This document shows positions 3,624 through 43,014 of a stretch of DNA of 64,000 nucleotides, piece after piece. Numbering within the stretch: position 1 is the first letter of the stretch; the number at the start of each line of letters is the position of its first letter. Source of the stretch: Chitinophagales bacterium (GTDB taxonomy: Bacteria; Bacteroidota; Bacteroidia; Chitinophagales; JADIYW01). Location of the stretch: positions 81,383 through 145,382 of the forward strand of contig JAMLHH010000001.1 of assembly GCA_023957215.1 (NCBI GenBank), read 5' to 3'. The notes under the pieces are model-generated. The model did no database searches and was not told the origin of the DNA. It worked only from the letters and a program-made list of their open reading frames with translations. A program made the position numbers and the translations under genes.

Positions 3624-4454
3624 TTAATCGAAATCCTCTGCAAATTTTGAATAGACTCTCTTCGATACCAAAATACTTAGCTCATAAAGTATGATGACAG
3701 GAGATGAAATCAACATCAGGCTAATCATGTCTCCTTGCGGAGTGATGATGGCAATCACCACCAAAATAATTACATAAGCAAATCTTCTGCCATTGATGAG
3801 AAGGTCAGGACCGACCAACCCTATTTTACTTAAAAAGTAAACCAACATAGGTAACTCAAACATGATACCCGTAGGAATGACCATAGAAATCACATTCGAG
3901 ATATAGTTGTCTATGGAAATAAAATTTTGTGCTATCTCAATCGCAGTATATGAGTAAAAGAAATTGATAGAGAAAGGTGCAATGATGAAGTAGCCAAAGC
4001 AACAACCTATCGTAAAAAACAAAGAACTAAAAAAGACGACACCTCTCGTCACCTGTATCTCATTTTTATACAAAGCCGGCTTGACAAATCGCCACAATTC
4101 CCAGAAAATATAGGGAAAAGCCATTACGAAACCCATGACGGCAGACATCTTCAAATGGAGCATAAATTGTCCCGCCAAATCCGTATTGATAAATTGATAA
4201 TGCAAATTTTCAGGGCACATGTTTAAAAAAGGAACACGCTCCGATATCCAGCAAAAAAGCTTATTGGTCGGAAAGTCATTTCTCGTCGGGCCAAATAAGA
4301 TATAGTCAAAAATTATTTTCTTGTTTAAGAAAGCAACTATCATAAAAATAACGACAGCTCCCACAGATCTCAACACATGCCAACGAAGTGCTTCCAAATG
4401 ATCTATAAATGACATTTCATTTTCGGAACTATCCTCTAAAATGCTCTCTTTCAT
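3624..4454 (-). CDS. tatC: Sec-independent translocase subunit TatC
   Basis: TatC is the six-span inner-membrane receptor for twin-arginine signal peptides. The protein (276 residues) has the cytoplasmic N-terminal motif FIDHLEALRWHVLRS, several hydrophobic spans, and the conserved stretch PTGIMFELPMLVYFLSKIG with the membrane Glu typical of TatC. The ATG at 4454 is chosen because it lies 5 bases after a perfect -7 box (TATCTTTGC, 4468-4460). The upstream in-frame TTG at 4463 falls inside that box. No tatA/tatB is adjacent. The transcript would be leaderless or nearly so. Confidence 0.93.
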   Translation of the reverse strand: MKESILEDSSENEMSFIDHLEALRWHVLRSVGAVVIFMIVAFLNKKIIFDYILFGPTRNDFPTNKLFCWISERVPFLNMCPENLHYQFINTDLAGQFMLHLKMSAVMGFVMAFPYIFWELWRFVKPALYKNEIQVTRGVVFFSSLFFTIGCCFGYFIIAPFSINFFYSYTAIEIAQNFISIDNYISNVISMVIPTGIMFELPMLVYFLSKIGLVGPDLLINGRRFAYVIILVVIAIITPQGDMISLMLISSPVIILYELSILVSKRVYSKFAEDFD

Positions 4455-4524: not shown

Positions 4525-5880
4525 ATGGCAAAAGTCAAAACTATATATGTCTGTCAAGAATGTGGCACGACCTCTCCCAAATGGATGGGTAAGTGTACTT
4601 CTTGCGGAGCATGGAATACTTTGGTAGAAGAAATAGTGACTACAAATACCACAAAAAATATTTCGGCTATTCCCTTACACAAATCCAATGCTATTCTATT
4701 AAAAGATATTTCGGCAAGTGAACAAGCGAGGATCTTTACGTCAGACAGCGAGTTTAACAGAGTCTTGGGGGGCGGCGTAGTCATCGGGTCTTTGATTTTG
4801 ATAGGAGGTGAACCCGGTATCGGCAAATCCACTTTACTTTTACAGATAGCCATGCAGACGGTCGGATTAACCGTATTATATATTTCGGGTGAAGAAAGTG
4901 AGCAACAGATTAAAATGCGTGCAGAGCGGCTAAATGAACAGATGGCAGACGTATATCTTTATACGGAAACAAAAGTGGATTTGATTCTTCATCAAGCCCA
5001 ACATCTGAAACCCGACTTGATGATTATCGACTCTATTCAAACCCTACAAGTAGAAGGTTTGGAGTCCGCAGCAGGAACAGTTTCACAAGTAAGAGAAGCA
5101 ACTCATGCCCTTCAAAATTTTGCCAAAAGTACAGGTACTGCAACCGTTATCGTCAGTCACATTACCAAAGAAGGTGTCATAGCCGGCCCTAAGTTGTTAG
5201 AACACATGGTCGATACCGTCTTGCAGTTTGAAGGAGATAGGCACTATAATTACCGCATGCTCAGAACAACAAAAAATCGTTTTGGTTCCACCTCCGAACT
5301 CGGTATTTATGAGATGAGAGGTGATGGCTTACGCCCTGTAAGCAATCCGAGCGAATTGCTGATTACCATGCGCGATGAACCTGCCAGTGGAGTAGCAATC
5401 GCTGTCACAATGGAAGGCAATAGAGCAATGATGATAGAAGTGCAAGCTTTGGTTTCCAATGCGGTTTATGGCACACCACAACGTTCGGCGACAGGTTACG
5501 ATTTGAGGCGTTTGCACATGATTCTGGCAGTGTTGGATAAAAAATGCGGTTTCCGATTCGGAACAAAAGACGTTTTTCTTAATATTGCCGGTGGAATGAA
5601 AGTGGATGATCCTGCAACAGATTTAGCAGTAGTAGCCGCTTTACTTTCTTCGTATGAGGATATTCCTCTAAAAGAAAATATTTGTTTCTCTGGTGAAATA
5701 GGACTTTCAGGGGAAATACGCGCCGTCAACAAAATAGAACAGAGAGTTTCTGAAGCTGAAAAAATCGGTTATCAAAATATTTTTATCTCCAAGTTTAACA
5801 CCAAAGGTTTAAAAAAATCTGCAAAATTGAATATTACAGGTATTTCTAAGGTAGAAAATTTAGTACAAAAGCTTTTTTGA
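4525..5880 (+). CDS. radA: DNA repair protein RadA
   Basis: RadA is a RecA-like helicase that extends heteroduplex and helps recombinational repair. The 451 residues show the full architecture: an N-terminal C4 zinc finger (Cys10, Cys13, Cys24, Cys27), a RecA core with Walker A GGEPGIGKST (residues 94-103), MIIDSIQT as Walker B, the RadA-specific KNRFG motif at 250-254, and a C-terminal Lon-like domain. Its stop overlaps the start of comF by one base (TGATG), indicating translational coupling. Confidence 0.97.
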   Translation: MAKVKTIYVCQECGTTSPKWMGKCTSCGAWNTLVEEIVTTNTTKNISAIPLHKSNAILLKDISASEQARIFTSDSEFNRVLGGGVVIGSLILIGGEPGIGKSTLLLQIAMQTVGLTVLYISGEESEQQIKMRAERLNEQMADVYLYTETKVDLILHQAQHLKPDLMIIDSIQTLQVEGLESAAGTVSQVREATHALQNFAKSTGTATVIVSHITKEGVIAGPKLLEHMVDTVLQFEGDRHYNYRMLRTTKNRFGSTSELGIYEMRGDGLRPVSNPSELLITMRDEPASGVAIAVTMEGNRAMMIEVQALVSNAVYGTPQRSATGYDLRRLHMILAVLDKKCGFRFGTKDVFLNIAGGMKVDDPATDLAVVAALLSSYEDIPLKENICFSGEIGLSGEIRAVNKIEQRVSEAEKIGYQNIFISKFNTKGLKKSAKLNITGISKVENLVQKLF

Positions 5881-6587
5881 TGAAATTTATCTCTCAGACA
5901 TTTAGTGGGCTTTACAGCTTTGTCTATCCCAACACCTGTCCGGGATGTAACAGAAGTTTGACGAAATGGGAGAAAAACATTTGCAATATTTGTCTCAAAA
6001 ACCTACCAGTAATAGCATTAAGCAATGAAAATGACAGCATCTTGCAGACCAGATTGATGGGAAGAGTATATTTGACACAGGCATACTCTATGATGCGTTT
6101 TTACAAAGGAAGCTTATCGCAAAAGCTTATCCACTCTTTGAAATATAGAAACAAGCCTTTGGTTGGTGTCGAATTGGGGAAAATGTTTGGAGAACAACTG
6201 AAACCATTTTTACAAATTCAGGAAAATTCCATCTTAGTCCCAGTACCTCTACATCCACATAAATATCAAATCAGAGCTTATAATCAAAGCGAAAAAATTG
6301 CAGAAGGTCTCTCACAAACCTTGAATATTCCTGTGGTGACAGATGCATTAGAAAGAAAAGGTTTTCACGTTTCACAGACTCAAAAACACAAAGAGGCAAG
6401 ATGGTTAGAAATAAAAAACGATTTTATAGCACATAAAGAGAAAGTAAATGATAGAGATATTATATTAGTAGATGATATTTGTACAAGTGGTGCTACCATC
6501 GAAGCTTGTGCAAAAACAATGGAAAATATGAATGTAAAATCTATCAAATTATTAACCTTGGCGGTTGCCGGAGACCATTATCAATGA
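5880..6587 (+). CDS. comF: ComF family phosphoribosyltransferase-like protein
   Basis: The 235 residues have an N-terminal zinc-binding motif (Cys20, Cys23, Cys35, Cys38) and a type I phosphoribosyltransferase fold with the PRPP loop ILVDDICTSGATI. ComF-family proteins are linked to DNA uptake in competent bacteria. In Bacteroidota the gene is widespread and its exact role is not settled. The ATG at 5880 overlaps the radA stop; a TTG one codon earlier is also possible. Its own stop overlaps the next start in ATGA form, so radA, comF and the lipoprotein gene form one packed unit. Linkage to radA fits a DNA-processing role. Confidence 0.88.
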   Translation: MKFISQTFSGLYSFVYPNTCPGCNRSLTKWEKNICNICLKNLPVIALSNENDSILQTRLMGRVYLTQAYSMMRFYKGSLSQKLIHSLKYRNKPLVGVELGKMFGEQLKPFLQIQENSILVPVPLHPHKYQIRAYNQSEKIAEGLSQTLNIPVVTDALERKGFHVSQTQKHKEARWLEIKNDFIAHKEKVNDRDIILVDDICTSGATIEACAKTMENMNVKSIKLLTLAVAGDHYQ

Positions 6588-8029
6588 GTGCAAAAAAAAT
6601 CATATATCATTCTTTATTGGGAATTTTCTTAGTCGTTTTCTTCTTTCTTTCTTCATGTAAAAAGGATAAGATAGATAGAAGCGGACAGGTGGAATTAAAA
6701 TTTTCGACAGACACACTCACCTTTGACACTCTATTTGTATCTCTCGGTTCGACTACTCGTTCTTTCACTGTCAGAAATCCTTCCAAAAAGCAAGTAGAAA
6801 TCAGTCATATTTATTTGAAAGGGATGAATAATTCTAATTTCAGATTGACCATTGATGGAGATTTGACCAATGAAGTAAAAGATATTATTATTCCGGCTCA
6901 GGATAGCATCTACATCTTTGCAGAAGTAACCGTCGATCCCAATCGTGAGCATCTTCCTTTTATCATAGAAGACGAAGTCGTCTTTGAAACGAAAGGTAAA
7001 AAACAACAGGTTATTTTGAATGCTTATGGACAAAATGCTCATTTTATCAATGGAGAAACCATAGAAACTCAAACATGGACCAATGATTTACCTTATGTGA
7101 TACTCAATTCCGTAGAAATAGCAGAACATCATACGCTTACGATACAAGAAGGTGTCACTGTCTATTTTGGTGGCAATTCAGGGATGTTTGTGAGCGGCAC
7201 ATTAAAAGTCGAAGGAGGAAAAGACACGACAGGTTGGGTGACTTTTAGAGGATATCGTTTGGACAAGCAAGTAACCGGAGTCGCTTATGACAAACTGCCG
7301 GGGCAATGGTTAGGAGTATTTTTGATGCGAGGTAGCCAAAACAATGAAATAAATAATTTCAGAATGCGCGGGAGTCAATATGGTTTAAATATCGGCAATA
7401 CAGAGATAGCGGAAATACCCAATATTTCTTTTGCCAATGCACCTGATTTAAAAATATCTAACAGCATCATTTACAATTCGAGTACTTATGGCATTTTTGC
7501 CTTCTTATCAAAAGTGGATGCTACAAACGTGCTGATTTATAATGCCGGGAAAAATGCCTTCAATGTGTCTTTGGGTGGCGAGTATGATATAAAACACTGT
7601 ACTTTTTATCTGAAACCTTCTGTCTTTTTAGAACACAAAGAACCTGCCGTTTATATCAGCAATTATCATATCATAGATGTAAATAGTCCGACATTTACCG
7701 CAGATTTAAATTTCAAGATGACCAATAGTATAGCTGATGGATCTGGTGAAGATGAAATCCTATATGACTTAGATAAAAATACGACAGTAAAAAGTATGGT
7801 GGAAAATAGTGCTATTAGAAATAAAATCACTTTCCCTGACGTTGTTGAAACAAATGTCAATCTTTATAACGAAAATTTTGGTTATATTGATGTGAATAAA
7901 GATGATTACAGATTGGGCAAAGGTTCCGTATTGATCAACAAGGGTAAAAATATAGGTATAAAAAATGATATACTTTGGAATCCAAGAGATGAGCAACCGG
8001 ATATTGGAGCTTTTGAGTATATTGAATAA
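6584..8029 (+). CDS. Predicted beta-helix lipoprotein, unknown function
   Basis: The 481-residue protein begins with a lipoprotein signal (LVVFFFLSSC, Cys25), so it should be anchored to the outer membrane or surface. An N-terminal beta domain (FSTDTLTFDTLFVSLGSTTRS) resembles choice-of-anchor or ASPM-like Ig modules. Residues ~150-400 alternate short beta strands and turns (VTVYFGGNSGMFVSG, LKISNSIIYNSSTYGIF), as in right-handed parallel beta-helices. The end, DEQPDIGAFEYIE, is a common finish of such proteins. The start at 6584 overlaps the comF stop and is the one followed by the signal peptide. The ligand or substrate is not known. Confidence 0.72.
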   Translation: MSAKKIIYHSLLGIFLVVFFFLSSCKKDKIDRSGQVELKFSTDTLTFDTLFVSLGSTTRSFTVRNPSKKQVEISHIYLKGMNNSNFRLTIDGDLTNEVKDIIIPAQDSIYIFAEVTVDPNREHLPFIIEDEVVFETKGKKQQVILNAYGQNAHFINGETIETQTWTNDLPYVILNSVEIAEHHTLTIQEGVTVYFGGNSGMFVSGTLKVEGGKDTTGWVTFRGYRLDKQVTGVAYDKLPGQWLGVFLMRGSQNNEINNFRMRGSQYGLNIGNTEIAEIPNISFANAPDLKISNSIIYNSSTYGIFAFLSKVDATNVLIYNAGKNAFNVSLGGEYDIKHCTFYLKPSVFLEHKEPAVYISNYHIIDVNSPTFTADLNFKMTNSIADGSGEDEILYDLDKNTTVKSMVENSAIRNKITFPDVVETNVNLYNENFGYIDVNKDDYRLGKGSVLINKGKNIGIKNDILWNPRDEQPDIGAFEYIE

Positions 8030-8043
8030 AAAGGAAAACAAGA

Positions 8044-10311
8044 TTGAATAAGAATGTAAAAAATTACGTTTATTCATTTCCTATACAGTTAGTAGTGGTG
8101 CATATCAAAAAGCATCCGATTCTACTGTTGTATTGGATAGTTCTGACATCTATCTCTGCCAATGTTTTTGCACGTGAGTACGGAGGTCCTTATCTCTTTC
8201 TCGACCCTGAATACAGAGGTAAAGTTTCTTGGTTAAGCTTTATGATGATGGGTTTTGCAATAGGTTCTTTTATTATGACCTGGAACACTTGTTTTTTTAT
8301 GCTGACAAGTTTTAGATTCAAATTTATTGTGGCTTTCGCAAGACCTTTCTTTTATTTCTGTTATAACAATTTTATCATTCCATTCACCTTTAATATTATT
8401 TACATTCTTTCAATTATCAATTTCCACTATAATCAACAGACTCCTTTTAATGAAGTGATGATTTATATCGTTTCTATGATAGGCGGTCAGTTATTGGTGG
8501 TTGCCTTGGTGACACTCTATTTTAGCTTATTCAATAAAAATGCCGAACACTTTTTGGATAATTTGACACAAAAAGCACGTGAAAAACTCGAAGTGGCCGG
8601 CGTTGTTTTGAAACCATTAAAAGATATTAACATCAATCGTGCAATTCACGATAATTCACAGTGGCCGGTTGAAACTTTTTTTTCCGGTCTTTTTAGAGTC
8701 CGAACCATAAGAGAAGTCGATGATTTTGATATGGCTATCGTTAAGCGAGTACTCATGCAGCATCACATCAATACGATATTAATTATAATCGTCAGTTTAG
8801 TGATTGTTGTCGTATATGGTGCTTTGTTGGACAATCCTATCTTCAGGTTTCCTGCCGGAGCCGGTCTCATTTTAATACTTTCCATCTTTGCGGCAGTCAC
8901 GACAGTGATTAATTATTTGGCGGGTGGATGGCAAATAATTGTTTTTATTGCAATCATTTTGGGTATCAATTGGATATCTACTTTTAACTTTATGGTCTAT
9001 AAACACAAACTTTTAGGATTAGATTATACACAGAAACCGTATTTGACATATAGCAATACTACTGTAGATGAAGCCTTGACGGAAGATATTTTAAAGAAAG
9101 ATATCGCAAATACCGAAAAGATTCTCAATAAATGGAAGCAGAAAGTACAGAAAAAAGATCAAAGAAAACCTTATATCATCTTTCTGCAAACTTCGGGTGG
9201 TGGCATGAAAGCATCATATTGGAGTATGAATGTTTTACAAAAACTTCAAGAAGCAACCCATGGAAAGCTTTTTGACAATACTTTTATGATGACAGGTGCA
9301 TCCGGCGGAATGATTGCCAATTCTTTTTTCAGACAATTATACTTTTTACAAAAACAAGGTCAAGATATCGACCCTTTAGACAAGCGTTTTCGCGGTGATA
9401 TAGGAAAAGATTTGTTGAATACAATTTTTTCGGGTATGGCCGCCAATGATATTCTTTTCCCTTGGCAGTCTTTTGAGGCTTATCATCAAAGGTATAGGAA
9501 AGACAGGGCGTATTGGTTTGACAATCAGCTTTTAGAGAATACTGAGAATCTATTAAAAGGGAAGATAACCGATTTTGTTGAAGCAGAGAAAAATGCAGAA
9601 ATTCCGATGTTGGTTTTTTCCCCTACTATTGTCAACGACCAAAGAAGCTTAATCATTAGTGCTACTCCGGTATCTTATCTATGCAGACCTTATGTAGGTA
9701 AAAATAGGGGACAGCTCAATTATCTCATTCCTGATGGTGTGGAATTTATGCGCTATTTTAAAAATGATGGAGCTGAAAATATGGATTTGACTACTGCAAT
9801 AAGACTCAATGCGACTTATCCGTACATATTGCCGGCAGCATATCTACCGACCAAACCGGAAATGAAAATTATGGATGCAGGCATCAAAGAAAATCATGGC
9901 TTTTTGATGAGTACCCGGCTTATTAATGTCTTTAGAGATTGGATCAACAACAATACGGCAGGGATTATCTTTGTACAGATACGCGCAGACGAAAAGTTGA
10001 GAAAAACGGATAATATGGATGAAAAAAGTACTTTCATCAAAGAATTACTACTTCCGTTTGGGAGTATTTATTCAAACTTTGCAGCTTTACAAGACTATAA
10101 TGACGATATTATGGTAGGTGAGTTAGCTTCAAGTCTGAAAGTACCGGTTCATATTTTACCTTTTATCTATACTCCGGCAGCTGAAAATAAACGGGCATCC
10201 ATGAGTTATCATTTGACCAATCGTGAAAAGATTGATATCATTTTGGCTTATAACACTCAAGGAAATCAAAATATGGAGAGAAAACTGAAAGAGCTTTTAA
10301 GAGTAAAATGA
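8044..10311 (+). CDS. Membrane-anchored patatin-like phospholipase
   Basis: The N-terminal half (residues ~15-320) holds several membrane segments. The C-terminal half is a patatin-type lipid hydrolase with a Ser-Asp dyad. The oxyanion loop SGGGMKAS is at ~384-390, the nucleophile elbow is GASGG (Ser420), and the catalytic Asp is in MDAGIKENHG (Asp611). Patatins cleave acyl esters of phospholipids or related lipids. The only usable start is the TTG at 8044: an in-frame TGA lies at 8023-8025, and no ATG precedes the first membrane segment. A purine-rich AAAAGGAAAA sits upstream. It lies 14 bases after the lipoprotein gene and meets the TlpA-like gene tail to tail with no gap. Confidence 0.82.
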   Translation: MNKNVKNYVYSFPIQLVVVHIKKHPILLLYWIVLTSISANVFAREYGGPYLFLDPEYRGKVSWLSFMMMGFAIGSFIMTWNTCFFMLTSFRFKFIVAFARPFFYFCYNNFIIPFTFNIIYILSIINFHYNQQTPFNEVMIYIVSMIGGQLLVVALVTLYFSLFNKNAEHFLDNLTQKAREKLEVAGVVLKPLKDININRAIHDNSQWPVETFFSGLFRVRTIREVDDFDMAIVKRVLMQHHINTILIIIVSLVIVVVYGALLDNPIFRFPAGAGLILILSIFAAVTTVINYLAGGWQIIVFIAIILGINWISTFNFMVYKHKLLGLDYTQKPYLTYSNTTVDEALTEDILKKDIANTEKILNKWKQKVQKKDQRKPYIIFLQTSGGGMKASYWSMNVLQKLQEATHGKLFDNTFMMTGASGGMIANSFFRQLYFLQKQGQDIDPLDKRFRGDIGKDLLNTIFSGMAANDILFPWQSFEAYHQRYRKDRAYWFDNQLLENTENLLKGKITDFVEAEKNAEIPMLVFSPTIVNDQRSLIISATPVSYLCRPYVGKNRGQLNYLIPDGVEFMRYFKNDGAENMDLTTAIRLNATYPYILPAAYLPTKPEMKIMDAGIKENHGFLMSTRLINVFRDWINNNTAGIIFVQIRADEKLRKTDNMDEKSTFIKELLLPFGSIYSNFAALQDYNDDIMVGELASSLKVPVHILPFIYTPAAENKRASMSYHLTNREKIDIILAYNTQGNQNMERKLKELLRVK

Positions 10312-11502
10312 TTATTCCGCTAAAAGTGTCTTGATTTTCCCTTCAAAATCCTCTTTATAGTTTTCATATAAAACACCCGTTGCCGGACCGTTAAAACCGG
10401 TATGTACTGCTACAATCTTTCCTTTTTTGTTGATTAAGAAAGATGTAGGATAAGCACGCAGTTGGTCTATCATGGGAAATTTTTTCAAAACATTCTCGCT
10501 TCCCGTTTTGCCGGCAAGTAGAAAAGTAATTCCCTTGTCAATATTTTTTCGAGTGATAAAACCTTTTACACGTTGCTGCTGTACATCTATTTTGTCCGTA
10601 TATTCAAAAGAAACGCTAATAATTTTTAACTCTGGAAACTTTTTGATCAGTTCTACAAAATAATTGGTTTCATCCACACAATTGGGACACCATGTGCCGA
10701 AAATACTAACGATGGCAACTTTTCCTTTTATTAAATTCTGAAAATTTTGCTCTATACCGTCGGCATTTTTTAAATCCAACTGAAAAGGTAAATCATTAAC
10801 GATTTTTGTCAATTTATCACCATCCGGAAGTTGGTAACTTTCATCCTGTACCGCCTCAAACCTAGTAGTATTCGTTGTCAAGCCATGAATAAGGGCACGT
10901 ATCGTATCCTTTTCGATTTTTCCATCCAAATAGAAAGCAGAATTTCCGCTGAAAGTACTCAAATAAAAATTTTCTCCATCAGTGACACCTTCTAAATATC
11001 TATAATCTCCCGAGTTGGTTCTTATCGTACCAAATACCTTGTCAAGTTCCTGGTGGATAATTAATAAAGCCGGAATATCTTTGTCTGAGCGTATTATTTT
11101 AGCTTTCCAATTTCCTTGAAAAGGAGTGTTAATTGTCTTTATTGGCGATAATTTTTGTAGAACGGGAAAAGCAATCACTTCTCTTTTTTGAGGGTGGCTG
11201 TCTTCAAAATTGATCCATTGACCGGAATAAATACCATTTGCACCTTGAATAAAAGATATCTCTGCGTTATAATCTATAAAATTGTAAAAGAGCGTATCAT
11301 TTATGATTTTTGCAGGCTGCAAGCGAATGGTTTCACCGGCATTTCTGATATTTAAGACCTGTTGTTTGTCATTCTCATTAACAAAACTCATTCTTGCCGG
11401 CAACCATTCATCCAAATCACTTTGAATATAGAGTTGATAGTTTGTTTCTTGTCCCCATAGAATGAAGGGTATCCATGATATAAAAAGTAAAAGCTTTTTC
11501 AT
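10312..11502 (-). CDS. TlpA-like thioredoxin-fold protein
   Basis: This is an exported protein of 396 residues with an N-terminal signal (MKKLLLFISWIPFILWGQ). A beta-rich N-terminal region (~20-240) is followed by a thioredoxin/AhpC-TSA domain with the redox motif WCPNC (Cys272, Cys275) and the cis-Pro region AYPTSFLINKKGKIV. Such proteins keep periplasmic disulfides reduced or serve cytochrome c maturation and stress defence; the partner here is unknown. Its stop codon lies directly beside that of the patatin gene on the other strand. Confidence 0.85.
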   Translation of the reverse strand: MKKLLLFISWIPFILWGQETNYQLYIQSDLDEWLPARMSFVNENDKQQVLNIRNAGETIRLQPAKIINDTLFYNFIDYNAEISFIQGANGIYSGQWINFEDSHPQKREVIAFPVLQKLSPIKTINTPFQGNWKAKIIRSDKDIPALLIIHQELDKVFGTIRTNSGDYRYLEGVTDGENFYLSTFSGNSAFYLDGKIEKDTIRALIHGLTTNTTRFEAVQDESYQLPDGDKLTKIVNDLPFQLDLKNADGIEQNFQNLIKGKVAIVSIFGTWCPNCVDETNYFVELIKKFPELKIISVSFEYTDKIDVQQQRVKGFITRKNIDKGITFLLAGKTGSENVLKKFPMIDQLRAYPTSFLINKKGKIVAVHTGFNGPATGVLYENYKEDFEGKIKTLLAE

Positions 11503-11961
11503 TCAAGCTGTTTATTAATACTCCTTGTCTAATGCATATATATGCATTTTGTTTAAAATCAAGTAAAAGATAAAGGTTTTAAAGTGTGTCTTGTTTAAGT
11601 GGCATAAAAATCTTGATCAAATAAGGAAGAGGAGAAATCGTCTTCAACGGGAATAATATTTGGTCCCTGATATACATGGAGCTTCGTTTGTTTTTGTTCA
11701 ATACCATAAAATGATATCAGCGTATTATACAGGCAAAGTGTCACCTTTTTAGACTATCTCTTATCCAAAATACATTATGGCAGAAAATCTGATTGAGGTA
11801 ATTTCTACTTTTTATGGCTCGAAGCTGAATGCATTAGTAATTGGTAATATTTGGTAGAGAAATAGCTATCTCTAAACATCCCTATAGTGTTGCTTAGCTC
11901 CATATCACCTCATCAATGGAAAGTAATAGCAAGTCGAATCCACATAAAATTCACTACACCT
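11503..11961. other. Intergenic stretch, no recognised gene
   Basis: About 460 bases between the TlpA-like start and the terminator of the giant adhesin. A 49-codon minus-strand frame (11744 down to 11595, GTG start) is the longest open piece; upstream frames are cut by stops. It may be the rest of a decayed gene. No repeat, insertion-sequence end or RNA was recognised. The palindrome ATGCATATATATGCAT (11532-11547) lies upstream of the TlpA-like gene and could be a regulatory site. Confidence 0.3.
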
Positions 11962-11999
11962 AAAAAAGAAACTGCCTACCTTTTCAGATAAGCAGTTTC
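11962..11999 (-). terminator. Terminator of the giant adhesin gene
   Basis: On the minus strand the stem GAAACTGC pairs with GCAGTTTC across a 16-base loop and runs straight into six T residues. It lies about 30 bases after the stop at 12032. Confidence 0.8.
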
Positions 12000-12031
12000 A
12001 CTATTTAAAAATGTATGTATGTGCCTAAAGC

Positions 12032-13475
12032 CTATTTCACTATCACAAATGGCAGAGATTGTATCTGACCATTGCTTCTGTCTGTAATTTGTAAGTAATA
12101 AGTACCTGCTGCAAATCTGCTGACATCTATCGTATTACTCGTTTCAACTTTATCTATAGACATCATCAATCGACCATCAGTAGAAATTACATTGAACTGG
12201 GTTTTTAACAAATCTTTACCCTTTATCTCCACTCTCAATAAACTTGAAGTAGGATTAGGATAGAGTCTGATACTTGTTTCGTCACATCCGATAACGTTTA
12301 CACTGACTATCTTATGAGTAGCTACAGTACCGTCAAAGTCAGTTTGTTTTAATCTGTAATAAACCAAACCACTTTGTACTTCTTGATCCACATAGGTATA
12401 ATCATGTCTTAAGTTTGTCGTACCATTACCGCTCATCGTTGCAATGGTTTCCCAACCTTTGGCATTGTAGCTTCTTTGAACCTCAAAGTAATCGTTGTTT
12501 AGTTCGGAGGCAGTTGCCCATTGCGTGAGAACTTTACAATCTTCAGATGTCGCAGTAAAGTAAATTAGTTCTATCGGAAGTGCAGCATCAGTAGTTATTC
12601 TGTAATCTACCGCAGGGCTTGAAAAGCCTGCATTATCTACCAAACTGTATTGGAAGCCTAATGGCTTATCAGTGAGACTATCTACTTGACCGGCTCCTTT
12701 CATACCGTATATGACAAGTTTATTAGGATCATAGTTTACCAAAGTGTCACCCGGTACTACTTCATCCACTCCTCTGTTTCCACCAAAGTCATAATACAGT
12801 CTTGTAGTAGGATAAATTTCATTGATAATATAAGTAGCGTTGTCCTTACATACGACACAATCTTCAGGGTCACTTCCCGTTAGCAATCCTTTATTCACAT
12901 AATTGGTGACACCTGTTAATGATGGGCTACTTGTCGGAATTGAGTAATAATCATCACCGGTAGGTGTAGTAACAGCCGGATAACCACTAACCGGAGTCAG
13001 GCTAAAGTCTGTTGTCTCCAAATAGTATTCTTTTGGATCAGCCAATGGTGGTTGTTGAATACCAAAATTGATATCTACCAAATTTGTTCTTGGCTTACCT
13101 ACTTCACTATTTTTACCATCAATATTGCCATCATTACCAGAAACTGCATCTATTTTACCCAATTTCTCTCCTGTACTCACCCAGCCGTCAGGCAGGGTTG
13201 ATGAAGTGACCGTAGTACCTTTTTCTCTTTGTACGGTATCTATTACTACTAAAAGATCTGTCTGGAATGGAGCATTAGTAAATTCGTAAGTACCATCTGA
13301 ATTGACAGGGACACTTTGCAAGACGACTCCGTTTGTATCTGTCAATATCGCATAAATTTGACCACCCACATTCACACCAGCACCATTCACATAGTCATCT
13401 GTCATACCGTTTCCATCATGGTAAACATTTCCTTGTATTGTCAGTCCTTCACCTATCAACATGCAAATGCCTAGT
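12032..13475 (-). pseudogene. C-terminal part of the giant surface protein, with T9SS sorting domain (frameshifted)
   Basis: This frame continues the giant protein after a frame break at 13454-13475. It begins with an SdrD-like module (LTIQGNVYHDGNGMTDDYV) and a further beta region. It ends in a type A T9SS sorting domain: LYPNPTSSLLRVEI, STDGRLMMSI, FAAGTYYLQI and the basic end FVIVK. T9SS cargo needs this domain to cross the outer membrane. There is no signal peptide or plausible independent start; upstream codons in this frame are an out-of-frame reading of the repeat. Without correction, recoding or a sequencing error, the body would lack its sorting signal. Confidence 0.75.
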
Positions 13476-16400
13476 ACAAAGTGGTTTTGGTTGGATGACA
13501 GTACTGTCACAGATTCCATATACACTTCTATCAGGACCTACATAATCTTTTGGTGGATTGTAGGTATAAGTACCGTTGTCATAATAAGTGATTGTACCGC
13601 CTTTCTCTGTTGAGTCTGTACGGACAGGCTGCTTGTTGCCTTCTGTTATACTTGGGTCGATAATCACTTTTGTACCATTCTCTTTGGTCATATATATAGG
13701 ATTATCATCCGGATCACTGTCATTATCTACAAAGTTGCCCTTCACCGGTGTATTCACAGTCGTGTATGAGAAGTCATCACCTGCATGAGGTGGATTGTTT
13801 TCAGGACCACGAGCATCAATGATTGGACGCTCTACTGTAATGACTACTTGAGCTTTGTCTTTTGCAGGTTGTGCAGTATAATCATCCGTGATTTCATAGT
13901 CGTAAGTAACCGTTCCGGCAAAACCGTTTTCAGGTGTGAAGACCATGTTTCCATTTTCATCCAAACTCAAATGACCTGCAACGTCCACTGGATTACCTTT
14001 TTCATCTATTCCACTAACTGGAATATTATTAACAGGATGTGTATTGTCCACACTCACTGTATGTGATCCATTGACATCATTATAAGTAATTTCAGTGATT
14101 GTAAAACCATCGCCTTGTGGATCGGCATCATTAATCAAGATATTACTTTCTACAGGACTGCCTTTTGTGTGATACTCATCATTATTAGCAATTATACTAT
14201 TTGCATCCGTTGGTTTTGGTGACACCGTGATTTCTAATATTGCCGTATCTCTGGCTACTCCCGCAGGATTGTCTTTGTCCTTGATAGTATATGGTACACT
14301 GACTGTTCCCACAAAGTCATTGATTGGGGTAAAGGTATAGTTACCGTTAGCATCAAATTTCAAATAACCTGCTCCTGTTACTGTATTACCATTTGCATCT
14401 ACTCCATTGACTAATGTACCTTGACCGCTACCACTAATTGGTGTGCCACTGCCATCTTGCTTGATAAAGCTTTCAAACACTTGTACATCTCCTTCTTTGT
14501 CAAAGTCGTTGGTCATTACATTGCCGTCAACAGGTGTATTGACCCATGTGCTGTTTTCGTCATTGACTGCATTAGTACTATTCTTACCACCTACCAATAC
14601 GTGAACTGTTGCTTCCGCACATAGTGGCTTAGGTTGTATCACCGTACTGTCACAGATTCCATATACACTTCTGTCCGGTCCTACATAATCTTTAGGTGGA
14701 TTGTAGGTATAAGTACCGTTGTCGTAGTATGTGATTGTACCGCCTTTCTCTGTTGAGTCTGTACGGACAGGCTGTTTGTTGCCTTCTGTTATACTTGGGT
14801 CAATGATTACTTTCGTACCATCTTCCTTAGTCATATAGACAGGATCGTCATTCAAGTCTCCGTCATTGTCGATAAAGCCACCATCTACAGGTGTATTTAT
14901 ATCAGTATATGAGAAGTCATCTCCTGCAAATGGCGGATCATTCTTAGGACCGTTGTTGTCTTTCACTACTGTAATCACTACCGTTGCATTATCTGTTGCT
15001 GGGTTGCCATTATCATCCGTGATTTCATAGTCGTAAGTAACCGTTCCGGCAAAACCGTTTTCAGGTGTGAAGACCATGTTTCCATTTTCATCCAAACTCA
15101 AATGACCTGCTACGTCCACTGGATTGCCTTTTTCATCTATTCCACTAACAGGAATATTATTAACAGGATGTGTATTGTCCACACTCACTGTATGTGATCC
15201 ATTGACATCAGTATAAGTAATTTCAGTGATTGTAAAACCATCGCCTTGTGGATCGGCATCATTAATCAAGATATTACTTTCTACAGGACTGCCTTGTGTA
15301 TAATATTCGTCATTGTTAGCGATGACACTATTTTCTTTTGTATTCAATGGTGACACCGTGATTTCCAATACAGCCGTATCTCTGGCTACTCCCGCAGGAT
15401 TGTCTTTGTCCTTGATAGTATATGGTACACTGACTGTTCCCACAAAGTCATTGATTGGGGTAAAGGTATAGTTACCGTTACCATCAAATTTCAAATAACC
15501 TGCTCCTGTTACTGTATTACCATTTGCATCTACTCCATTGACTAATGTACCTTGGCCACTACCACTAATTGGTGTGCCACTGCCATCTTGCTTAATAAAG
15601 CTTTCAAACACCTGTACATCTCCTTCTTTGTCAAAGTCGTTGGTCATCACATTGCCATCTACCGGTGTATTCACCCAAGTGGAGTTTTCATCGTTAACTG
15701 CATTGGTTGTATTCAATATAAGATAATCAGTCACATCATCTACAATAGGTGTTTTTACAAAGTTAGATGTTGCACTTGCCTTATTATATATAGAATCTAT
15801 AGCAGGATTATTTACTACCACCTTATAAGTAACTACTAAAGAGTCTCCCGGTAATATTGACCAATCACTTGCTAATACAGAAGGTGAACCAACATTACCT
15901 TGTATTATCTGAGTAGTAGTACTAGAGTAACTAATGATAATCTGACCATCAGCACCGGCACCGCCATTTCTAGTACCAGATGTTCTTCTGGCTCCACCGC
16001 CACCGCCACCCGGAATAAAGCCCGGATTACCATCAGCATTGACATTCACACCGTCACCGCCATTACCTCCACCTGTTGGTGCAGTGGCTCCACTTATATT
16101 AGTTGCATTTACTCCATTAGCAGAAACTCCGGCTGATGAGCCTCCACCTCCGGCATCATTACCGCTTGCATTAGCTCCATTTCCACCGGCATATCTAATA
16201 TCACCTTTAGCTCCAGTGCTACCACTTGTACTACTTGTACCACCATTAGCACCAGAAGTAGAGTTATTTGCAACACTACTTCCCCCTTTTGCTCTAACAA
16301 TAACATTATTGTTGTTGTTTTGACTTCCACTAGTAGTTGCAAACCAAGTATCATCACCTGCACTAGTACTATTCCCGGCAGCACCAGCACCCACAGAATA

Positions 16401-19400
16401 ATAATAAGTTCCTTGTGACACGTTGAATGTACTTTCGGACATCCCACCGCCACCTCCGCCACCGTAAGCTCCGCTACCACTTGACCTTGAACCTCCGGAT
16501 CCACCACCTGCCCATGCTTGTACGGTCAATGAAGTTACACCATTCGGAACTACAAAAGAACCTGCACTCGAACCCGATAAGGTGTCAGTGTGTTGGACAG
16601 AAACTTGAATTTGATTATTACCCAATGCCGCATTTGTAGAGTTGGTTACATAAGTAACTCCTGTCGGAAGAGTATCCGTCAACTTAACACTATTGTGTAT
16701 AAAATCATCATTATTTTTTACAACAATTCGATAAGTGATAGTGTCTCCCGCCATATAACCATTTACAACATCTGATGTTTTCTTAATACTCAATTTGCTA
16801 TATGCCACACCAAAGTTAACCTCATCTACCGTTACATCAGAATTTGTAGTGTAATAAGTATTCAAATTACCTATGGATACAACACCTTCAGTATTGTTTG
16901 TATTAGCACTTGGTGTTGTACCGCGATTCGTACCGGTATAGTAAGTATTATCTGGTGCTTGATCTCCAGTGGTTAGGTTGGAACCTATGGTTTTCTTACC
17001 TTTAGTCAAAATCACCTGATAATCTCCGGATTCTGATAAATCTCTGTTACTTACTTCTATTTCATAAGTGCCATCGGCATTTACATTGGCTTGACCAATC
17101 ACTTCTCCTTCTGGATTAACCAAATTTGCCCAAATATTACTATTGCCTAAATTACCCTCACTATTGTCTAAAATAGCATCTTCATTCTCATCTATCCAAA
17201 TATTACCTGGTATAGTAATTTTATATTCTTTACAATTTTCAACTGTTATCAAAACCTGAACTATTGCACCTGCACATTCGGAAGATGGAGGAAGTTCATA
17301 ATAGACTCTGACATTTCTTTGTGTTACAGCACCTGAACCACTACCCCAATTCATGTTTCGGGCATCTAACATTCCGTTTTGATCAATGCTGACACTGTTA
17401 AATATCGAACCAGAAGTCTGACCATCCACACTTGCGATACTATAAACACCACCTACTGGTTCTCCAATTAACTCAATCAAATCTGCATTACAATAGGTAG
17501 CATAGTTAGCCAATTTAGGTTTTAATGTACCATCCACAGTCGGCAGACCACATACATCAATCACGTTAGATTCAAACTGTACAGGATTTATAGAATTGTC
17601 ATCAGTAGAACCATCTCCCATACTACCATTTGTCTTATGTCCGATATACCCAAAAGTATTGTTACATTTTTTTAAAAGCATAGTTGTATGGCTACCTGAT
17701 TCTACAGTGATTACATCATTGTTTCCACCAGTAAACTGGGTAGGCATACCCGGATCTACTTTTGTACTAGCACTTGTAGATTGGTGTACTCCTCTTCCCA
17801 AATCATAACCACTTTCTTGTCCCCAGTTCCAAACTTCCCCATTATTATTTCTTGATATTACATTAATCATAGGGTATTCATTGTAGCTATGTTCTTGAGG
17901 AGATATCCAAGCGATATTATTCATAATATTACTTGTACCTCCTCCACTTGCATATCGAGGTTGTTGCCATGAGTCGAATGTAGTAGTAGTCGAAAAATTT
18001 CCTATCTGACCATCTCTATTACCTCCGAGTGCATATAAAGCACCATCCTGATATAATACATAATAAGTCATATCCACAGGGCGTTGATTCTGTCCAGTAC
18101 CAACAGTATAATTAAAAGCCGTATAGCCACTCCATGCTTGCATTTCTTTCATAGCACCTATCATTTTGATAGTTCCGGCTTTAGGTCTAGTCATTTTAAC
18201 TGCATAAGTTCTGTTTGCAACTGTAGTATTATTACCTAAACGAGTTCCATATCCCCATGTCCATAAATCTCCATTTTCATCTAAGGCAACTAAACCTGCA
18301 GATGTACCACGCGTAGCGATAATATTTTCTAAATAACCGCTTGCTGTATTTCCATTGCTATTATTACTATACTGTACCCGTACCCAGTCTGTACTTCCTC
18401 CACCTTGATTAATCAAATCATTTTGAGACAAGACATAAACTTCACCACTACAAGTAGTCAGTGCCAAGGTCTGTACTGTACCAAATAACATCTTGACATC
18501 AGAAGCACTAACTCCTGTCGGAAGTCCGATAGTCAGCTGTCTAAAATCTCGTTCAGAGTTGCCGGAGCCTCCAGGTGTTAACGAGCTATTAACCAACACT
18601 CCTTTCCAACCCCATGCCCATAATTTATCATCACTTGTCAACAAGATAAATTGCGGATGATCCCACATACTCGCCATAGCAATCATCACTGGTTCTCCAG
18701 TATAATTATATCCATTGCCTGGCGTAATAGACGTCGGTACTAATGAAGGATTCTTGCTAGAATTACCAACCGGGCCGGTATATTCTCCCCAAACTTTGAT
18801 AGTTCCATCTACCCACTGAGCTGCGGACGAATGCCAAACTGATATTACATTATCATAACTCAAAGAAGCCGGATCTTCTGATTTAAAGCCGGAGTTTTCC
18901 GGATTCACACAAGTAGCTTCTCCCAAACAATTCAAGAATGTAGGGCCAGGGCATTTCACTGTCTGAACTGCATTGTTGGAGACGATATTATTACAACCCA
19001 CTCCGGATGGAAGTCCGTCACATTCATCTTGTGGATCTGTGGGGATTGTATCAGTCGAATTGATATCTGTCGCATTAATATCTTCAAAATCTGCCGGTCT
19101 CAAAATAGAAGCCTTAACACCAATATTTGAGTTAGCCACCAATGGAGGATTTATGCGGCCTTTGATAGTAAATAATCCTTTACTACCATTTTTAATATCC
19201 ACCAATACAGAATATTGAGTATTGGTAATATCTGCGCTTCCGTTTTGTAATGATGTTGTTCCAACTATAGTCGAGTAGGAAACATTCCAAATCTCAAAGC
19301 CGTCAGGATAATCAAAGAAAAACTTAGCACCTTCTGCATCATCCGTCAATCCATTACCACTGATATTTTCAATCTCTATTGTATAAACAACTGTATCTGC

Positions 19401-21107
19401 ACATACAGTGGCTGTGTTCACGTTAGACGTAACACTATTGACTGCCAAGTCTCCAATATGTCTTATTAAAGAAGAGGCGATTACTTGTGGAACACTTTCC
19501 ACAAAAGTCCAAGTATCAATTGTCCTATTATTACCATAAAAGTCTGTGTCTGGGCCACCTCCACCTGAGGAAGAGCCAATACCACTCCATTTATGACCAT
19601 TGGAATTACTGCTGATACCATCATTTTTATTGTTTCTCGGGTTAGATGCAATCTGACCAGCCTTGGCATTTAAATCAGTTGGAGAATCATTCCAATAGAC
19701 TATATCTTTCCCGGGAATCAAAGTGTAATTATTTGTATGGTCAGTCTGCTGAATAATAAATCCATCCCAATTCGACTCTACGTCTATAAAAGGAAAGTGT
19801 ACTTCAGAAACACTGATAACGCCTCTCACAGTAACACCGGCATTGTTAGGAATCAAATTTCCAAAATTATCTTTTCCATCCCAATGTATTTGCACTTCTT
19901 CATTAGCATTTGCATCACCAATAAATGTAACATCCACAGGATCCGTATAGCTTCCATTGCTATCAACATCTATATAGATTCTATATTGTCCTGAAATATT
20001 AGAGGTGAAAGAAATAATACTTCCTTTAGGACCTACAGTATTAGCACTATTAGCTTCAAATCCTACAAGTTTTAAATTGTTTATCTGCGGAACTACAGGT
20101 GTATTTTTCAACCATGTAGTAGCTGTAGGGTTGCTTCCGAATTTAATTGAAGCAGATGTTGGCAAGTCAGTTGCAGGTTTATTGAAAAACAATTTATTGG
20201 TAATATTATTTCCATTATCAGCTTGTCTCGGATCCCATACATTTGATGACACCGTCGCTAAATCTGATGCATCCAAACTTACATAAGCAGAGCCTCCATT
20301 CGGAAAATTGGTCATTACTCCTTTGTTATTACTAAAAAAGTTAAAAGAGGCCCCATTCTGTCCATTATTATCCACTAAGTAAACAAAACCTTCTGGTGTT
20401 AGAACATAAAATTTCGCATAGAAAGAACGTTCATTAAATCTTGTATTGGGAGCGGTACCGTTAAAAACTGTTGTATAAGCTCTACCAGAAATCAATGTAC
20501 CTGAAGAGCCTACTGAAACATCCCAAGCTGCAATCAATGATGCACTATAAGCATGTGCTTCCTGCACCCAGTTACCGTTAGCAGTATAGTTTCTATCTGT
20601 ACCTGAACCTGTAGTGGAAGAACTAATATTTGTTCCATAACCGACTGTCGTAAAATTAATCTCCCAAATACCTTCTTGGGCACTTGTAACGGTTCTCGTA
20701 TAAGCATTATACCCACCATTATTATTGATATTGGGCCCTATCAATTCCTGAGATCTATTTTGAATTCTACCGACCGTCGTACTCGTACCTGAGGTATAAG
20801 TATCGCCATTGGGCGCTTTCAATTGAATGCTGGCAGTAGTCCCACTTAATGACATCCCTTGCATGCTGGATCCCACATAGATAGTCTCTCCAGATTTTGC
20901 ATATATATACATCCGCCCCGGGTTGGAGAAAGGGTTAAAAGCAGCATCAGTCGTAGAACTCAATAAATAAGCTCTGTATCCTTGCGCACCGTTAGGATAC
21001 AAATCTTTACTACCTTCGGCATATACGTATGTGCTGAATGAAAATAGCAATAGCAGGAGGATAGCTATCGGATTTTGAAAGGATTTAGTTTGTAAAAAAT
21101 TTCTCAT
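13449..21107 (-). CDS. Giant multidomain surface protein (adhesin-like), body
   Basis: The 2552-residue frame starts with a signal peptide (FQNPIAILLLLLFSFSTYVYA). Domains in order, approximate residues: a beta-rich head (30-530), a DUF11/Ig-like segment (~550-700), RCC1-like repeats (~780-1170; LWAWGWKG, LWTWGYGTRLGNN, LYALGGNRDGQIG, VWNWGQ), an SdrD-like module (~1300-1430), a DUF11 repeat (~1440-1530), a glycine-rich stretch (~1530-1720), then cadherin/Ig-like repeats (~1795-2552) in two near-identical blocks. Such proteins act in adhesion or gliding. Cys/Gly-poor, Asn/Asp/Thr-rich composition fits a secreted surface protein. The frame stops at 13449, just before the rest of the protein continues in another frame. 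Confidence 0.8.
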   Translation of the reverse strand: MRNFLQTKSFQNPIAILLLLLFSFSTYVYAEGSKDLYPNGAQGYRAYLLSSTTDAAFNPFSNPGRMYIYAKSGETIYVGSSMQGMSLSGTTASIQLKAPNGDTYTSGTSTTVGRIQNRSQELIGPNINNNGGYNAYTRTVTSAQEGIWEINFTTVGYGTNISSSTTGSGTDRNYTANGNWVQEAHAYSASLIAAWDVSVGSSGTLISGRAYTTVFNGTAPNTRFNERSFYAKFYVLTPEGFVYLVDNNGQNGASFNFFSNNKGVMTNFPNGGSAYVSLDASDLATVSSNVWDPRQADNGNNITNKLFFNKPATDLPTSASIKFGSNPTATTWLKNTPVVPQINNLKLVGFEANSANTVGPKGSIISFTSNISGQYRIYIDVDSNGSYTDPVDVTFIGDANANEEVQIHWDGKDNFGNLIPNNAGVTVRGVISVSEVHFPFIDVESNWDGFIIQQTDHTNNYTLIPGKDIVYWNDSPTDLNAKAGQIASNPRNNKNDGISSNSNGHKWSGIGSSSGGGGPDTDFYGNNRTIDTWTFVESVPQVIASSLIRHIGDLAVNSVTSNVNTATVCADTVVYTIEIENISGNGLTDDAEGAKFFFDYPDGFEIWNVSYSTIVGTTSLQNGSADITNTQYSVLVDIKNGSKGLFTIKGRINPPLVANSNIGVKASILRPADFEDINATDINSTDTIPTDPQDECDGLPSGVGCNNIVSNNAVQTVKCPGPTFLNCLGEATCVNPENSGFKSEDPASLSYDNVISVWHSSAAQWVDGTIKVWGEYTGPVGNSSKNPSLVPTSITPGNGYNYTGEPVMIAMASMWDHPQFILLTSDDKLWAWGWKGVLVNSSLTPGGSGNSERDFRQLTIGLPTGVSASDVKMLFGTVQTLALTTCSGEVYVLSQNDLINQGGGSTDWVRVQYSNNSNGNTASGYLENIIATRGTSAGLVALDENGDLWTWGYGTRLGNNTTVANRTYAVKMTRPKAGTIKMIGAMKEMQAWSGYTAFNYTVGTGQNQRPVDMTYYVLYQDGALYALGGNRDGQIGNFSTTTTFDSWQQPRYASGGGTSNIMNNIAWISPQEHSYNEYPMINVISRNNNGEVWNWGQESGYDLGRGVHQSTSASTKVDPGMPTQFTGGNNDVITVESGSHTTMLLKKCNNTFGYIGHKTNGSMGDGSTDDNSINPVQFESNVIDVCGLPTVDGTLKPKLANYATYCNADLIELIGEPVGGVYSIASVDGQTSGSIFNSVSIDQNGMLDARNMNWGSGSGAVTQRNVRVYYELPPSSECAGAIVQVLITVENCKEYKITIPGNIWIDENEDAILDNSEGNLGNSNIWANLVNPEGEVIGQANVNADGTYEIEVSNRDLSESGDYQVILTKGKKTIGSNLTTGDQAPDNTYYTGTNRGTTPSANTNNTEGVVSIGNLNTYYTTNSDVTVDEVNFGVAYSKLSIKKTSDVVNGYMAGDTITYRIVVKNNDDFIHNSVKLTDTLPTGVTYVTNSTNAALGNNQIQVSVQHTDTLSGSSAGSFVVPNGVTSLTVQAWAGGGSGGSRSSGSGAYGGGGGGGMSESTFNVSQGTYYYSVGAGAAGNSTSAGDDTWFATTSGSQNNNNNVIVRAKGGSSVANNSTSGANGGTSSTSGSTGAKGDIRYAGGNGANASGNDAGGGGSSAGVSANGVNATNISGATAPTGGGNGGDGVNVNADGNPGFIPGGGGGGARRTSGTRNGGAGADGQIIISYSSTTTQIIQGNVGSPSVLASDWSILPGDSLVVTYKVVVNNPAIDSIYNKASATSNFVKTPIVDDVTDYLILNTTNAVNDENSTWVNTPVDGNVMTNDFDKEGDVQVFESFIKQDGSGTPISGSGQGTLVNGVDANGNTVTGAGYLKFDGNGNYTFTPINDFVGTVSVPYTIKDKDNPAGVARDTAVLEITVSPLNTKENSVIANNDEYYTQGSPVESNILINDADPQGDGFTITEITYTDVNGSHTVSVDNTHPVNNIPVSGIDEKGNPVDVAGHLSLDENGNMVFTPENGFAGTVTYDYEITDDNGNPATDNATVVITVVKDNNGPKNDPPFAGDDFSYTDINTPVDGGFIDNDGDLNDDPVYMTKEDGTKVIIDPSITEGNKQPVRTDSTEKGGTITYYDNGTYTYNPPKDYVGPDRSVYGICDSTVIQPKPLCAEATVHVLVGGKNSTNAVNDENSTWVNTPVDGNVMTNDFDKEGDVQVFESFIKQDGSGTPISGSGQGTLVNGVDANGNTVTGAGYLKFDANGNYTFTPINDFVGTVSVPYTIKDKDNPAGVARDTAILEITVSPKPTDANSIIANNDEYHTKGSPVESNILINDADPQGDGFTITEITYNDVNGSHTVSVDNTHPVNNIPVSGIDEKGNPVDVAGHLSLDENGNMVFTPENGFAGTVTYDYEITDDYTAQPAKDKAQVVITVERPIIDARGPENNPPHAGDDFSYTTVNTPVKGNFVDNDSDPDDNPIYMTKENGTKVIIDPSITEGNKQPVRTDSTEKGGTITYYDNGTYTYNPPKDYVGPDRSVYGICDSTVIQPKPLCTRHLHVDR
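13476..14576 (-). repeat. Tandem ~1.1-kb intragenic repeat, copy 2
   Basis: This copy (1101 bp) runs from the TNAVNDENSTWVNTPVDG start to PKPLC. It encodes about 367 residues of Ig/cadherin-like modules nearly identical to the neighbouring copy at the DNA level over long stretches. It is 12 bp longer than copy 1, an in-frame difference. The frame break lies directly after its end. Confidence 0.88.
14619..15707 (-). repeat. Tandem ~1.1-kb intragenic repeat, copy 1
   Basis: This 1089-bp copy has the same borders as copy 2 and encodes the same three module types: VNDENSTWVN…, NNDEYYTQGSPVESN…, and AGDDFSYTDINTPV…. A 42-base linker (AEATVHVLVGGKNS) joins it to copy 2. The high DNA identity indicates recent duplication or gene conversion. 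Confidence 0.88.
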
Positions 21108-21420
21108 ATCGTACGTTTAAATGTTTTCAAATGGATTCATACAACTACTTATTAGTAGGTGTTGTTCAATGTTATAAAAAGGAATATCTTTCCCATATAT
21201 ATTGAGAAAAAAGTTGTTTCTAAAATAGACAAATATAAAATGTATAACTTTAATCATAGTATCTCTTTGATTTACAATACAAAAGTATATCTGTTTTACA
21301 ATCAATTATAAGCATCATTCATTTCTTTACAAGAATATAAAAGTATATTAATAGCAACTTTATAGTTACTATACAGTTTACAAAGCTACATCGGCAAGAC
21401 AAATATTATTGTGTTGAATG
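21108..21420. other. Upstream region of the giant adhesin gene
   Basis: This AT-rich non-coding stretch precedes the minus-strand adhesin. A minus-strand TAGCTTTG (21388-21381) fits the -7 consensus and would give a leader of about 270 bases. No -33 element was convincing. No gene was recognised. Confidence 0.3.
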
Positions 21421-21472
21421 AGTGAACAAGGCGTTTCATTAAGTGAACAAGGCGTTTCATTGAGCGAACGAG
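21421..21472. repeat. 21-bp direct repeat, two and a half copies
   Basis: Units at 21421-21441 and 21442-21462 differ only in the last base. A degenerate third partial unit follows to 21472. The unit length is three times seven, as in the heptamer array that begins about 95 bases further on. Confidence 0.75.
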
Positions 21473-21566
21473 AAAAATAAAGTTTGCAGATAATAGTAAG
21501 ATAACGCTGAAGTGATGAATAGGTAATGGAAGTTAGTAAATGAGTAAATGTGAGAATTAGCAAATA

Positions 21567-22231
21567 GACGATAGACCACAGACGATAGACCACAGACCAC
21601 TGACAACTAAAAATTAAAAGTTAAAAACTAAAAACTAAAAACTAAAAACTAAAAACTAAAAACTAAAAGTTGACTGCCGACCGATGACTGCTGACCATTA
21701 ATAACTGACTACAGACCATAGACCATAGACCACTGACAACTAAAAATTAAAAGTTAAAAACTAAAAACTAAAAACTAAAAGTTGACTGCCGATTGATGAC
21801 TGCTGACCACTAATAACTGACCACAGACCACAGACCACTGACTACTGACCACTAATAACTGACCATAGACCATAGACCATAGACCACTGACAACTAAAAG
21901 TTAAAAGTTAAAAGTTAAAAACTAAAAACTAAAAGTTGACTGCCGATCGATGACTGCTGACCACTAATAACTGACTACAGACCATAGACCATAGACCATA
22001 GACCACTGACAACTAAAAATTAAAAGTTAAAAGTTAAAAGTTGACTGCCGACCGATGACTACTGACCACTAATAACTGACCATAGACCATAGACCATAGA
22101 CCACTGACAACTAAAAGTTAAAAGTTAAAAACTAAAAACTAAAAGCTGACTGCCAACCGATGACTGCTGACCACAAATCACTGACCACTGACCACTGACC
22201 ACTGACCACTGACCACTAATAATTAATAACT
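21567..22231. repeat. Heptamer-periodic array (95 x 7 bp)
   Basis: The whole 665 bp can be cut into consecutive seven-base words without a slip. The main words are GACCACT, GACCATA, AAAAACT, AAAAGTT, AATAACT, GACTGCC and GACTGCT. Words recur in a fixed order, forming a higher-order unit marked by GTTGACTGCC at 21669, 21781, 21935, 22040 and 22145 (GCTGACTGCC in the last). The spacings of 112, 154, 105 and 105 are all multiples of seven. There is no long open frame. It lies between the divergence side of the adhesin gene and the terminator of the SusCD operon. No function is known to me. Confidence 0.9.
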
Positions 22232-22260
22232 GTCACCCTTTATAGACAAAGAGTAGAAAA

Positions 22261-22288
22261 ATAAAAAAGGCCACCTTGCGGCAGCCTT
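22261..22288 (-). terminator. Terminator of the SusC/SusD operon
   Basis: On the minus strand AAGGCTGCC pairs with GGTGGCCTT (two G-T wobbles) around a GCAA tetraloop and is followed by a T-run. It lies 25 bases after the last gene of the operon. Confidence 0.85.
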
Positions 22289-22312
22289 GAAATTTTAAAT
22301 GAGTGATACCTC

Positions 22313-22852
22313 TTAGTAATCCTCATCAGGTTGTCCGGTATATTTGATACCGGAATAGTAGAATACATCACCCGGAGAATCAGCAAACTCGACCTTAAAG
22401 AAAATACTATCTACTTTCTTACCAATCAAAGATGTTGCTCCTTTAGGAATGATTTTACCCTCTATAGAAGTCACCAACTCGACAACACTTGGATCTTGAC
22501 TCGGGATGATACTAATATAATCCCCCTTAACAAATTCCTTTGTTTCAGTATTGACAGCTATCTTAGATTGGAATGGCCAGATAGCATTATCTACTAACCA
22601 AAGAGAATCTTTAGAGTTTGCAGCATCATTAGAAGTCGTGAAATCAAAACCTGTGTCAGCATAATCCAAATATAAGTAATCATTATCATGGTTGAGAACA
22701 CCATCACCATCCGTATCAAGCCATAGTTGTATCCACCATCTACCTGACATATCCACTACATTGGATACCGGTGCTTCATATTCTTTCTCGCAAGAATTAA
22801 AGAGTGAGACTAGAAGCAGTGCAGAAATTATTAATAAACTTTTCTTTTTCAT
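22313..22852 (-). CDS. SusCD-linked lipoprotein (Lipid_bd / putative hydrolase family)
   Basis: The 179-residue protein has a lipoprotein signal with lipobox LFNSC (Cys21). The mature part contains MSGRWWIQLWLDTDGDG and a late segment SIFFKVEFADSPGDVFYYSGI. This matches the small lipocalin-like lipoproteins that follow SusC/SusD pairs in Bacteroidota (Pfam Lipid_bd), whose function is not established. It is the last gene of the four-gene operon and is followed by a clear terminator. It is 11 bases from its upstream neighbour. Confidence 0.7.
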   Translation of the reverse strand: MKKKSLLIISALLLVSLFNSCEKEYEAPVSNVVDMSGRWWIQLWLDTDGDGVLNHDNDYLYLDYADTGFDFTTSNDAANSKDSLWLVDNAIWPFQSKIAVNTETKEFVKGDYISIIPSQDPSVVELVTSIEGKIIPKGATSLIGKKVDSIFFKVEFADSPGDVFYYSGIKYTGQPDEDY

Positions 22853-42806: not shown

Positions 42807-42942
42807 CACTCATTCGTTTATTAAACAAAGATACTAAAAATTATAATCATAACTATAACTTTTAGTAAAATCTTATAAAGTTATAAGTATAACTATAATA
42901 TTTATCTCAATTTGTATTTCAAATCTTGGCTAAAAATCCATT

Positions 42943-43014
42943 GGTACATTGATACATTGATACATTGATACATCGGTACATCGGTATATCGGTACATCGG
43001 TACATCGGTACATT
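42943..43014. repeat. 8-bp tandem array, nine units
   Basis: Nine consecutive units of GRTACATY (GGTACATT, GATACATT, GATACATC, GGTACATC, GGTATATC) fill 72 bases. The array stops 2 bases before the stop codon of the VWA-like membrane protein gene and lies upstream of the DUF4143 ATPase gene. Confidence 0.9.

Follow-up and report, generated by a model that had tools for sequence, protein, structure and literature searches.

The window, the whole stretch of DNA analysed here (64,000 nt, G000:C1:81383-145382), belongs to the 2.88 Mb assembly G000 (70 contigs) and harbours on its minus strand a large repeat protein gene divided between two reading frames. The first, ORF-A (13449..21107, minus strand, 2552 aa), begins with an N-terminal signal peptide, called typical by eye, and continues with DUF11 and Big_9/Cadherin/CshA repeats; a Gly-rich domain, RCC1-like repeats and Cadherin_5 were also found. 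It stops early, at 13449, after the residues CTRHLHVDR. The second, ORF-B (12032..13537, minus strand), encodes the C-terminal part of the same protein in the +1 frame; its first start codon (13525) gives 497 aa, and ORF-B alone was without a signal peptide by eye. The T9SS type A C-terminal sorting domain (Por_Secre_tail / TIGR04183) lies at 12065..12265 on the minus strand (ORF-B residues 421-487). It scored above the cut-offs of both models (Por_Secre_tail, E 4.3e-10, 40.2 bits vs. a cut-off of 27, Pfam PF18962; TIGR04183, 37.8 bits vs. a curated cut-off of 23, NCBIfam), as required of a T9SS type A sorted protein.

The original prediction, that the first frame stops at 13449 and that the sorting domain follows in the other frame, was correct: the +1 frame is open from 13537 to 12032. 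ORF-A and ORF-B overlap by 89 nt, in which both frames are open. The protein of a relative (L023/L138) aligned over both pieces and switched frames only once, at 13470/13468; the split is thus no accidental overlap of two ORFs. As the frame changes between 13537 and 13449, signal peptide and sorting domain do not share a single open frame in the window gene; they do in the relatives L023 and L025. The gene has the parts of the T9SS type A CTD surface proteins of Bacteroidota (tandem-95/CshA/DUF11) in the right order, spread over two frames; unlike in those proteins, the sorting domain is, as assembled, in another frame. The name giant adhesin is a putative one, taken from the domain content (Big_9, Cadherin_5, CshA and DUF11 repeats). 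The presence of T9SS was judged by SprA alone, which was detected in G000 with 2418.6 bits and an open frame of 2478 aa, so that export is expected in principle.

Upstream of the gene, an intergenic stretch of about 670 bp (21564-22232) is made up of heptamer-based repeats (AACTAAA / GACCATA / TAAAAGT units) with higher periods of 105-154 bp. The sequence GACCATAGACCATAGACCA from these repeats recurs at G000:C45:35685 and the edge of G002:C15, and is absent from G001. An Rfam scan around the adhesin gene gave no match.

The join between the two frames

The break is located at the end of a duplicated module. Repeat copy 1 (14619..15714, minus strand) reads through intact, and repeat copy 2 (13476..14583, minus strand, 87.8% identical to copy 1) ends immediately ahead of the break. 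The two copies otherwise differ by 118 mismatches and by gaps that keep both frames open, and within 200 nt of the break the identical words common to both are at most 44 nt long. The frame-break stretch itself (13454..13475, minus strand) has 22 nt between the codons TGT (13478-13476) and GGT (13453-13451), where copy 1 has 27 nt; the counts previously given between the shared Cys and Gly codons were right.

We compared the gene with its relatives in G001 and G002, genomes of the same genus (genes as in the contigs of the Chitinophagales MAGs ACE_NR_BACT6 and ACE_NR_BACT7), in a comparison set with one genome per species. ORF-B is 54-59% identical to three same-genus relatives (L023, L024 and L025). 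All three have exactly 27 nt between the same Cys and Gly codons and pass the join in a single frame, indicating that an intact form exists and that nothing at the join looks programmed. The first 1750 residues of ORF-A were unmatched in G001/G002 except weakly at the DUF11 repeat, and the comparison therefore covers the repeats and the C-terminal part. L023 and L025 hold a single copy of the repeat module and the window gene two; the doubling looks lineage-specific to the window genome. The sister-species gene L024 has a frame break of its own at another site (about 3799-3831), beside a run of four C.

Aligned with the 27-nt form, the 22-nt stretch is recognisably homologous to it, and a single unique event cannot be named. 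One clean 5-nt deletion was rejected: against L023, one gap gave 20/28 matches and three gaps gave 23/28. The one-gap score was reached by 7 (L023), 6 (L025), 138 (copy 1) and 171 (L024) of 2000 shuffled stretches.

The original prediction had offered four readings of the break, among them programmed recoding, in which ribosomes would shift +1 within the overlap and make the whole protein. The 89 nt open in both frames would give room for this. However, none of the three relatives needs a shift at the join, so that no shift site is conserved, and the overlap contains neither an in-phase -1 slippery heptamer nor a run longer than four. Moreover, the window shift is +1, and the further single breaks that we analysed in G000 (L157, L177 and L187) are -1. 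Recoding is accordingly the least probable of the four readings.

A phase-variable switch, in which slippage or recombination at the repeat border would maintain a mixed population of frame-on and frame-off cells, is also highly improbable. Such switches usually target repeat-rich surface proteins, and the lesion does adjoin a duplicated module. By contrast, the site has no simple-sequence repeat or tandem array (longest run in the overlap, four), which disposes of simple-sequence slippage, and the three relatives show no length variation here. A silent donor copy was sought elsewhere in G000 by DNA and protein searches of the own genome, which matched only this gene and its internal copy. The site showed neither a hypermutable tract nor an invertible segment or donor cassette, inverted repeats having been sought within 5000-16000, 11400-12100 and 21000-22400. 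Recombination between the two copies, also suggested earlier on account of the repeat border, fared no better. The border itself is real, the homology of the copies ending at 13476, at the Cys codon just before the 22-nt stretch. As the lesion lies just outside this homology, crossing-over between the copies would change the copy number and leave the join unaltered, whether as a repair or as a switch. It is very doubtful that the break is reversible and that small gains or losses of length at the border of the last repeat toggle the export of a giant surface protein; in the off state of such a switch, the long part would be kept in the periplasm.

Garbled patches and broken genes in the assembly

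The assembly contradicts itself at two other loci, and lesions like that of the window were found at both. The 3' part of uvrA and the region beyond it, 2.5 kb in all, were assembled twice (L247, G000:C24:19800-23800, and L248, G000:C53), a locus that displays the type of error directly. The two versions align over 2,536 columns at 98.5% identity, and perfectly matching runs reach 714 nt; they differ in a mismatch cluster of 70 columns where C53 ends and in five patches of 6-9 columns. Each of the five patches has a net change in length, which shifts the frame in four cases; four patches also contain substitutions. uvrA is open for 703 aa on C53 and cut into pieces on C24. In a genuine second copy of the gene, one would not expect long stretches of perfect identity interrupted by nothing but garbled patches. 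The 22-nt stretch of the window resembles such a patch.

The second locus, L190 (G000:C70:23651-26139), duplicates the 3' end of the repeat gene before it, with numerous indels. One of its segments is 97.7% identical to that gene, with 7 indel events vs. 6 mismatches, and its longest segment has 35 indel events, 32 of them not a multiple of three. Real divergence would be expected to bring far more substitutions than indels. One-base events fell in runs of three or more in 6 of 23 cases, and the patches mix substitutions and length changes, so that these are not pure homopolymer errors. In addition, a giant T9SS gene on C6 has two shifts about 70 nt apart, the second of which restores the frame. 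On the same contig (L143), a 3.6-kb stretch that extends through the sorting domains is 99.6% identical between two adjacent giant T9SS genes (7712-11323 and 15134-18745).

Next, we analysed how many genes are broken. In the window, 39 other ORFs were tried; 13 had no relative among the stretches compared, and all of the remaining 26 were in one frame with the compared relative, over 26,871 nt. Likewise, the 23 TonB plug receptors of G000 had no stop inside the domain. Among genes with a T9SS sorting domain, 6/47 were broken in G000 (the window gene, the C6 gene, L157, L177, L187 and L190) vs. 2 or 3 of 56 in G001, the latter count depending on L245, a fragment of ambiguous assignment (p 0.14 or 0.29 respectively). 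This excess is not significant and was discarded as proof of error. The total of 47 derives from 49 sorting-domain loci, two of which (L142 and L174) run into the contig start and were left out. For each sorting-domain ORF, the 5' border was the only place at which the absence of breaks was scored. Signal peptides were rated by a home-made maximum of hydrophobicity, and we inspected the flagged cases by eye.

Local assembly error or recent frameshift

Of the four readings offered at the outset, a sequencing error is favoured, followed by a recent real lesion. A local error of the assembly is the most likely cause of the frame break. On this explanation, no more than 22 nt would be garbled, with 5 nt lost on balance, where the duplicated repeat module borders on the unique C-terminal part, and this patch would have the same cause as those elsewhere in G000. 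In the living cell, the gene would then be a single open frame that starts with a Sec signal peptide and finishes with a T9SS type A sorting domain, and it would encode an otherwise ordinary T9SS-exported repeat protein.

Several results argue for an assembly error: the open 27-nt join in all three same-genus genes, the frame-changing patches where the assembly contradicts itself (C24 vs. C53, and C70) and the pair of frame-restoring shifts in the C6 giant T9SS gene. The state of the two ORFs points the same way. The remainder of ORF-A and ORF-B is free of other stops or shifts; about 4% of random substitutions would create a stop, and the number of such substitutions at which a stop becomes 95% probable is about 68 for ORF-B and 78 for ORF-A. 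The break is consequently young at most. According to the excerpt of PMC8442456, long-read-first hybrid assemblies usually have a higher number of errors in repeats, and insertions/deletions make up 91% of the errors overall. The errors of hybrid long-read assemblies described there, mostly in repeats and dominated by indels, also support an assembly error. The window lesion is like them in being short, frame-changing and at a repeat border, with more examples in G000; the G000 patches differ in mixing substitutions with length changes, and the platform used for G000 may differ from that in the excerpted part of PMC8442456.

Other results speak against an assembly error. The window is otherwise clean (26/26 genes with a compared relative unbroken), so that errors are sparse, and the 23 TonB plug receptors are stop-free inside the domain. 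The gaps between the repeat copies otherwise leave the frame open, the shared words near the break (44 nt at most) mean that the repeat alone need not mislead an assembler, and the excess of broken T9SS genes is not significant. A second assembled copy of the adhesin locus, with which the join could be compared, was not found in a DNA search of the own genome.

The main rival, which we consider possible and clearly less probable than an assembly error, is a recent real frameshift that would have turned the gene into a pseudogene in this lineage. It is consistent with the lack of any other break in the window, with the location of the lesion at the border of a lineage-specific duplication (one module copy in L023 and L025) and with the broken surface genes of a sister genome (L024, the same locus as L202, and L233). 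However, neither ORF has an extra stop or shift, so that the lesion would have to be very young, and similar-looking patch errors were demonstrated in the same assembly. Further accumulated lesions, as expected of a pseudogene, were not found in ORF-A or ORF-B, although a very young pseudogene would escape detection in this way.

T9SS cargo that lacks its sorting domain is expected to cross the inner membrane and then to be retained in the periplasm. If the frameshift were real, the 2552-aa part would be trapped in the periplasm after its entry, and export of the C-terminal part would fail. The cargo of T9SS-deficient P. gingivalis was located in the periplasm and had lost its signal peptide (PMC7712824, excerpt). 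The same excerpt provides a precedent for a frameshifted cargo gene: PrtT, a T9SS CTD protein of P. gingivalis, has 840 aa in one strain and is listed with a 'frameshift' in another (PMC7712824). A CTD protein that is whole in one strain and frameshifted in another is like the possible state of the window gene; the PrtT frameshift is known from a comparison of strains and the window break from a single genome. A real break would represent a strain-level loss of T9SS cargo. With an assembly error as the preferred explanation, the locus serves as a warning that apparent pseudogenes or 'switches' in large repeat proteins of draft assemblies need a read check first.

Two further observations were made away from the adhesin gene. 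In the window, an 8-bp unit, CATCGGTA, is repeated 9.4 times at 42939-43013, between two minus-strand genes. L115 (2721-4006) contains a 258-aa ORF resembling an IS630-type transposase, adjoining a truncated ABC-transporter ATPase of 101 aa.
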